DNA of 51,631 nucleotides from Candidatus Harrisonbacteria bacterium (lineage in GTDB: Bacteria > Patescibacteriota > Minisyncoccia > UBA6257 > UBA11618): contig JAHFLN010000003.1 in assembly GCA_023244835.1 (NCBI GenBank), forward strand, positions 1-51,631, read 5' to 3'. The notes beneath the pieces were generated by a model that searched no databases, was not told the origin of the DNA, and saw only the letters and a list, made by a program, of their open reading frames with translations. Both the position numbers and the translations under genes were made by a program. Shown one piece after another: positions 20,687 to 49,161 of this stretch (positions are counted from its first letter, which is position 1; the number at the start of each line of letters is the position of its first letter).

Positions 20687-21307
20687 ATGGCGAGAACCAA
20701 AGCAGTAGTAAAGAGGGTGAGGGGAGCAAGGAAGGCGAGGCGGATAAACGTGGCAATCGCGGGCGGCCCCTGTACGGGCAAATCGACGACCGCCGCGTTC
20801 CTGTTCGCGCATCTGAAGGAGCTCGGATACGATGTCGATCTCGTTCCCGAAGAGAGTCGGAAACTGAAAAGGGAATTCGGCCGATGCCGGTCGGTCTTCG
20901 ACCGGTTCTATCTCTGGCTCCAGCAGGAGCGCGAAGAGCTCCGATCGACCGCGGTGCACGGGTTCATAACCGACGCCCCGCTTTTCCAGTACTACGCGCA
21001 GGCGCGCATGTGGGGGAGGGGGAAAAGGGACATGCTCGCGGTGAGAGAGCTCTTCCGGCAGTCCTTGCGGCTCGACGATCGCTATCAGCTCATCGTGATG
21101 GCGGAGGATCCGAATGAGATTCCGTACAAGACGGATCGTGCCCGATCGGGGAAGAAGAAGGATGCGCGCGAGCGTCATCGGATACTCCGTACGTTCGTGG
21201 AGCATCAATGGAATGGTAAATTGCTCCTGGTTCACGGAACCGTTGCGGAGCGTGTCGAGCAGATAATGAGGCGTCTGCGGGCGATGGGCCTGTCCCGGCG
21301 CGCATAG
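20687..21307 (+). CDS. P-loop ATPase/kinase (AAA_28/NadR-kinase-like)
   Basis: INVAIAGGPCTGKSTTAAFLFAHLKELGYDVDLVPEESRKLKREFG...ITDAPLFQYY. Confidence 0.75.
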   Translation: MARTKAVVKRVRGARKARRINVAIAGGPCTGKSTTAAFLFAHLKELGYDVDLVPEESRKLKREFGRCRSVFDRFYLWLQQEREELRSTAVHGFITDAPLFQYYAQARMWGRGKRDMLAVRELFRQSLRLDDRYQLIVMAEDPNEIPYKTDRARSGKKKDARERHRILRTFVEHQWNGKLLLVHGTVAERVEQIMRRLRAMGLSRRA

Positions 21308-21337
21308 GCGCGAGAGGGATGTGTGTTGGTGTCATGG

Positions 21338-45759: not shown

Positions 45760-46972
<1,213 letters not shown>

Positions 46973-48366: not shown

Positions 48367-48615
48367 TCAATGCATCGTGATTACTCGATCCCAGGTGAGC
48401 GATTGGCCGCCATGGTTACGCGTCATCGAGACGGCGCGATCATGATGGGAAAATTCAAATGATGCTTGCAAACGCTGGAGATCGAGCATCTTTTTGGCCT
48501 TGAGGCCGGGAGACGGATCGGGATCGGCGGTCACGGGCCGGAGGCCTGCGAGCCGTAGCGCGACAAATGTGATCATCTCCCGCATGCCAGTTCTGGTGCC
48601 GAGTAATACGTTCAC
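48367..48615 (-). CDS. Small hypothetical protein
   Basis: GTG start (48615-48613) with AAGGAG upstream, own promoter (48694-48665) and downstream terminator. Confidence 0.6.
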   Translation of the reverse strand: MNVLLGTRTGMREMITFVALRLAGLRPVTADPDPSPGLKAKKMLDLQRLQASFEFSHHDRAVSMTRNHGGQSLTWDRVITMH

Positions 48616-48660: not shown

Positions 48661-48694
48661 GTATATAGTACCATAGATACTATATACTTGTCAA
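48661..48694 (-). promoter_or_regulatory. Promoter overlapped by perfect 10-7-10 inverted repeat
   Basis: Minus TTGACA (48694-48689) - N18 - TACTAT (48670-48665); GTATATAGTA-CCATAGA-TACTATATAC at 48661-48687. Confidence 0.72.
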
Positions 48695-48696
48695 TT

Positions 48697-49106
48697 AAAA
48701 AAGAAACCTTGGGGGTGATGTCCCCCCAAGGTGGTCGCGCAGGCGACCTATTAGCCAGATCCTGAGCTTTTTCGGGTTCAGGTCTTGTCCCTATCACGAC
48801 CGCATACCCCCGTTTCGAACGGAGGAGAGGCGGTGCGTGCGGCGCATGGTTTGCCCGCAACGCGATCCGGAGTTCCGTATGGTCGTGATCCATACGGCCT
48901 TCTGCAGTGAGGCGACTATTCGCCTCAGAGCCACGAGATGCTTGATGCTAAGGCATTCTCCGAAGCTCTCTATCGCCAGACCAAGCCTTGCCCCTTGGCG
49001 TAAAGTATGGGCTAGGCTTGCCACGCTGTCGCCGAGAAACTCTCGGCATTCCCTCTAAGCCCGCATGGGATCGGCTTTCGAGGCACATCGAATAATAACA
49101 AGATCT
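48697..49106 (-). ncRNA. Highly structured noncoding RNA, family not identified
   Basis: Minus promoter TTGACA (49141-49136) - N17 - TACGAT (49118-49113); several perfect hairpins; strong terminator CCTTGGGGG-GACATCA-CCCCCAAGG followed by TTTCTTTTTT. Confidence 0.75.
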
Positions 49107-49161
49107 GCCTATATCGTAGTCTATTATCAATAATTTGTCAATAGGAGTCGGGCGGGGTAGT

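Follow-up and report, generated by a model that had tools for sequence, protein, structure and literature searches.

Analysis of the window, i.e., the whole 51,631-nt stretch of DNA, revealed a probable minus-strand RNA gene in the interval between uvrA (plus strand, end 48295) and uvrC (plus strand, start ~49171), oriented divergently from uvrC. The predicted transcript of ~400 nt (48697–49106, minus strand) has the anatomy of a structured RNA. Its promoter, core and terminator are conserved in a second species, it shows no coding signal and it belongs to no known family, which supports the proposal of a first-pass annotation that a structured noncoding RNA gene lies here. We consider it probable that this is a stand-alone ~400-nt structured noncoding RNA gene, restricted to a few species of one Parcubacteria-type genus, whose product would most likely act in trans.

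Anatomy and conservation of the probable RNA gene

The gene is preceded by a sigma-70-type promoter, TTGACA-17-TACGAT (49113–49141, minus strand), which matches the sigma-70 hexamers at 10 of 12 positions. At the other end lies an intrinsic terminator (48696–48732, minus strand) with a 10-bp stem (48732–48706) followed by TTTCTTTTTT. The minus-strand promoter and terminator reported by the first-pass annotation are thus borne out. The ends of the RNA are predicted, the 5′ end being placed ~7 nt past the -10 box and the 3′ end in the T-run of the terminator.

Perfect hairpins (at least 7 bp, loops of 3–8) are strongly overrepresented in the gene: five were counted, four of them distinct, vs. 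0.19 expected from dinucleotide shuffles, and the observed count was equalled in 0 of 1000 such shuffles. The minus-strand RNA folds with a minimum free energy of -177.4 kcal/mol and a z-score of -6.8. As inverted repeats fold on both strands, the plus strand of the region also gives a strong fold, with a nearly equal z-score of -5.6, and the strand call therefore rests on the promoter and the terminator.

An ortholog of the RNA, 81% identical and likewise located between uvrA and uvrC, was found in the congeneric Parcubacteria group bacterium Ike-150m-21 (a MAG, hereafter G002; the genome of the analyzed stretch is referred to as G000). It occupies positions 20912–21323 of G002 contig C8 (CALQZH010000008.1) and folds with a z-score of -4.2. 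Both promoter hexamers and the terminator stem are identical in the two species. Identity between G000 and G002 varies along the RNA: it reaches 84% in the core, 74% in the 5′ part, merely 50% in the 3′ variable part before the terminator and 93% in the last 44 columns, which comprise the terminator. The hairpins are linked by near-invariant stretches, for example CTGGCGATAG, CTGCAGAAGG and AACTCCGGATCG.

At fourfold-degenerate sites the two species are 57% identical in uvrC and 61% identical in uvrA. Alternatively, the region could be an insert that is neutral or in decay, similar in the two species owing to recent common ancestry; this reading would suit its very narrow distribution. Yet, the core is more similar than these sites and both promoter and terminator have been kept, and we assign this explanation only a very slight probability. 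Nor do we favor the view that the region is, or formerly was, protein-coding, which we regard as very unlikely. A minus-strand ORF of 76 aa (49024–48794) is present, and a 45-codon open frame aligns at 78% amino acid identity with eight third-position changes, all of them silent as read off the alignment. Against this, the differences by codon position are flat (6, 6, and 8, vs. 41, 26, and 177 for uvrC), an indel disrupts the frame past codon 45 while the surrounding DNA stays conserved, no Pfam or NCBIfam match was obtained, and a coding function would leave the helices unexplained. Core identity above that of fourfold sites, together with the flat codon-position pattern, therefore indicates a constraint on the RNA that is not protein-like.

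Predicted helices of the RNA in two species

All the hairpins listed in the first-pass annotation are present in the sequence, at the minus-strand coordinates given below. The RNA begins with a 5′ hairpin, CCTC-AAGCC/GGCTT-GAGG (49052–49083), followed by GCCGAGA-GTT-TCTCGGC (49031–49047). Comparison of the latter with its G002 counterpart showed an 8-bp helix, CCGAGAGA/TCTCTCGG, longer on both arms. Helix P2, CAAGCCT/AGGCTTG (48982–49020), carries one substitution, with the pair retained as G-U, and helix P4, AGAGCTTCGGAG/CTCGTGGCTCT (48927–48969), shows two compensatory double changes from C-G to U-A in G002. These are followed by P5, TGAGGCGA-ATAG-TCGCCTCA (48908–48927), P6, CCGTATGG-ATCACGA-CCATACGG (48875–48897), and P7, GCG(T)TGCGG/CCGCACGC (48835–48863). 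The outer pairs of P7 are retained via wobble changes, and its inner pairs were read from the sequences. When the RNAs of the two species were folded separately, the 5′ hairpin, P2, P4, P5, P6 and the terminator were formed in both.

Downstream of P7 lies the hairpin CCTCCG-TTCGAAA-CGGGGG (48807–48825), which is kept in G002 with its sequence replaced by TGCTCTTG-GTAG-CAAGAGCA. The T-arm-like element CTCCG-TTCGAAA-CGGGG noted earlier is thus present at ~48807–48825, but the loop has not been retained in G002, the only relative. Two more hairpins precede the terminator: the small CCTGA/TCAGG (48761–48782), which resembles the hairpin before the terminator of a short unit in a sister species (G001, see below), and GGTCGC-CTGC-GCGACC (48733–48748), present in G002 too.

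Preservation of the helices was evaluated on the two-species alignment against a substitution-shuffling null. With the alignment hand-corrected in two places (the support was weaker before the second correction), only 6 of the G002 pairs with P > 0.8 were broken in the other species, vs. 16.1 expected (p = 0.001), and in the core only 4 vs. 9.0 (p = 0.013). Among the G000 pairs with P > 0.5, 13 were broken vs. 23.7 expected, a value obtained in 0 of 1000 null trials; restricted to the core, the G000 pairs gave p = 0.07 (P > 0.5) and a weak 0.16 (P > 0.8). The number of double changes between the two sequences did not exceed chance under the same null. On this comparison the helices appear better preserved than under random substitution, and the covariation from two sequences is suggestive but short of proof. 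We conclude that the RNA is likely structured, while the structural details given here are provisional.

One candidate long-range contact was also noted. The P6 loop, ATCACGA (48883–48889), could pair with TCGTGAT (48793–48799) as a pseudoknot or other long-range partner; all 7 bp can form in both species, one of them through a double change. A random-substitution null produced a comparable long-range helix in 15% of trials, so the pairing is not significant.

Known RNA families and distribution

The first-pass annotation had left a choice between a divergent known RNA and a new class, and held that a significant Rfam hit would decide for the former. No match of the RNA was obtained by cmscan against Rfam at gathering thresholds, and with E-values of up to 10 both the G000 RNA and its G002 ortholog gave chance matches only. 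RNase P RNA (RF00010) did not match within the RNA gene; it was found elsewhere in the genome (C30:5022–5365), end to end, with a score of 62.4 bits that lies below the family cut-off.

In turn, tmRNA, SRP RNA and 6S RNA were not found in the G000 assembly with the Rfam models. As tmRNA is present in 59 of the 61 sampled genomes of the order, its apparent absence from G000 meant that a divergent tmRNA had to be considered seriously, and the T-arm-like loop pointed the same way. The covariance model RF00023 gave no match in the RNA gene. A divergent or permuted tmRNA was rejected on the evidence of G002, which carries, in addition to this RNA, an ordinary tmRNA next to smpB; the identity is also undercut by the replacement of the TTCGAAA loop by a GTAG-loop hairpin in that species. 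The tmRNA of G000 most likely lies in an assembly gap, because contig C11 (17934 bases) ends 106 nt after smpB, where relatives have tmRNA. Besides G000, one more of the 61 genomes (G175, 93% completeness) is without a tmRNA above the cut-off. Results of this kind show how a relative's genome and assembly gaps can serve to exclude tmRNA and RNase P RNA.

For 6S RNA (RF00013), no match was seen in the RNA gene with a model that finds only 5 of 14 controls and misses many divergent 6S RNAs; the fold itself is a series of hairpins vs. the single long hairpin with a central bubble of 6S RNA. The small SRP RNA model (RF00169) recognizes 11 of 14 controls and matched neither the RNA gene nor any of the seven genomes of the family; it may be blind to this lineage, and the SRP RNA of the family f1 lineage is probably divergent. 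The 6S model likewise matched in none of the seven genomes, and the negatives of both models therefore say little. Most other family genomes are without the RNA described here, which also argues against a housekeeping role. Given the ordinary tmRNA of G002, the RNase P RNA found elsewhere and the results at permissive Rfam thresholds, the divergent known RNA option of the first-pass annotation is not supported; that the RNA is a divergent tmRNA, RNase P RNA, SRP RNA or 6S RNA is largely refuted, and we attach next to no probability to it. The other option, a new class, stood in part: the RNA is an orphan found in two species, but a class cannot be defined on the thin covariation that two sequences provide.

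A covariance model built from the 157-column core recovered the RNA in G000 and G002 only, with no third copy among 244 genomes of the order. A scan of 85,462 species genomes with the motif CTGGCGATAGAGAG-N-TT-N-GGAG (20 fixed bases) did not yield a third copy either. An extra pattern match in a Peribacter MAG (L076), without a covariance model match, was attributed to chance, and weak BLAST matches in other members of the order, where inspected, also looked like chance, several lying within protein genes. A search of plasmid, phage and viral-contig sequences gave no match, and an origin from such elements was discarded. No literature on Patescibacteria noncoding RNA with covariance models was found.

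Within the family, the RNA was not found in five of seven genomes. Neither the RNA nor the small ORF was found in two sister species, G001 and G003. In G003, uvrA and uvrC abut and leave no room for the RNA, while in G001 the place is taken by a unit of 120 nt that has a terminator and a divergently oriented promoter. This unit (L069:5490–5660) also contains hairpins, is divergent from uvrC and is perhaps a reduced relative of the RNA. It was not accepted as an ortholog: its 3′ hairpin and promoter look alike, but the similarity (p ~0.05) is not significant. The restriction to two sequences in one genus counts against our preferred reading, as an essential housekeeping RNA would be more widely distributed. 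A separate observation concerns the neighboring uvrA, which in G000 is split by an in-frame TGA (46970–46972, plus strand) at a position occupied by Ser in G002 and G003 (SQIG-S-RLVG); the alternatives are a point nonsense mutation, an assembly error or recoding.

The small downstream ORF and likeness to known systems

Directly downstream of the RNA gene lies a small ORF of 82 aa with a GTG start (48367–48615, minus strand), which the order search recovered only in G000 and G002, the same two genomes as the RNA. Its first 40 codons are conserved in G002 (70% amino acid identity, third positions most variable); the remaining C-terminal half is divergent and not conserved. The protein matched neither Pfam nor NCBIfam. 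Just past the RNA terminator, the ORF is preceded by a promoter of its own (48694–48665, minus strand), and over this promoter extends a 27-bp palindrome, GTATATAGTA-N7-TACTATATAC (48661–48687), which is unique within the window, shows a symmetric change in G002 and is likely an operator.

The main rival to a stand-alone noncoding RNA is that the transcript serves this ORF (48615–48367) as a 5′ leader or attenuator, with alternative pairing setting read-through of the terminator. Two findings speak for it: G000 and G002 both carry the RNA together with the ORF, neither of which was found elsewhere in the order, and the 3′ half of P6 has two possible partners, one in P6 itself and one at ~48793–48807, in the manner of a switch. 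On the other hand, the ORF has a promoter and a putative operator of its own just after the terminator, a leader of ~390 nt would be long, the terminator stem lies outside the candidate switch, and the long-range pairing of the switch did not reach significance. We regard the leader as a possibility to be kept in mind, though an improbable one. Somewhat more doubtful is a new ~400-nt RNA class confined to one genus of ultra-small bacteria, with a pseudoknot or a two-state P6, that would work together with the co-inherited 82-aa protein.

The RNA and the ORF may also form one cassette. As uvrA and uvrC abut in G003, the two look like an insertion; they are jointly present or absent, and the palindrome is operator-like. 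These features would suit a cassette of a selfish or toxin-antitoxin-like nature that was inserted between the two uvr genes and in which the RNA controls the small protein. We hold this to be unlikely, as the RNA is without tandem repeats of the kind seen in type III antitoxin RNAs, the small protein matches no Pfam or NCBIfam family, and searches of plasmid, phage and viral-contig sequences recovered no copies.

For the stand-alone noncoding RNA that we prefer, the sequence suggests the following course. Transcription would start at the RNA's own housekeeping-type promoter, proceed divergently from uvrC and stop at the intrinsic terminator of the same gene. In its mature form, the RNA would be a chain of stable hairpins: the 5′ hairpin, P2, P4, P5, P6, P7, a replaceable variable hairpin and the terminator. 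The P6 loop possibly contacts the sequence downstream of P7, and the conserved unpaired stretches may allow the RNA to work in trans, either as a regulator or bound to protein. In genomes of ~0.6 Mb little dispensable DNA is expected; a 400-nt RNA that is conserved in two species and has no family is therefore a promising candidate for a regulator or RNA-protein particle specific to this lineage.

In comparison with known systems, the RNA is similar in size to tmRNA (RF00023; ~350–400 nt) and has a T-arm-like hairpin in one species, but no acceptor stem, tag frame or conserved T-loop was recognized. With type III toxin-antitoxin RNA loci it shares the order of promoter, RNA, terminator and small ORF; it differs in the lack of visible repeats and in an ORF that has no toxin family match and is separately promoted. 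Like the ornate large RNAs OLE, ROOL and GOLLD, it is large, highly structured and of unknown function, although shorter than these and without a matching Rfam model. Orphan structured intergenic RNAs are a known kind, to which this RNA, itself without an Rfam family, can be compared: structured noncoding RNA candidates from bacterial intergenic regions have been obtained by comparative genomics (e.g., PMC2864571, PMC11109978). The present RNA, with two sequences only, has covariation far below the class-defining level; like those candidates, it falls into no Rfam family and combines its own promoter and terminator with many stable helices.
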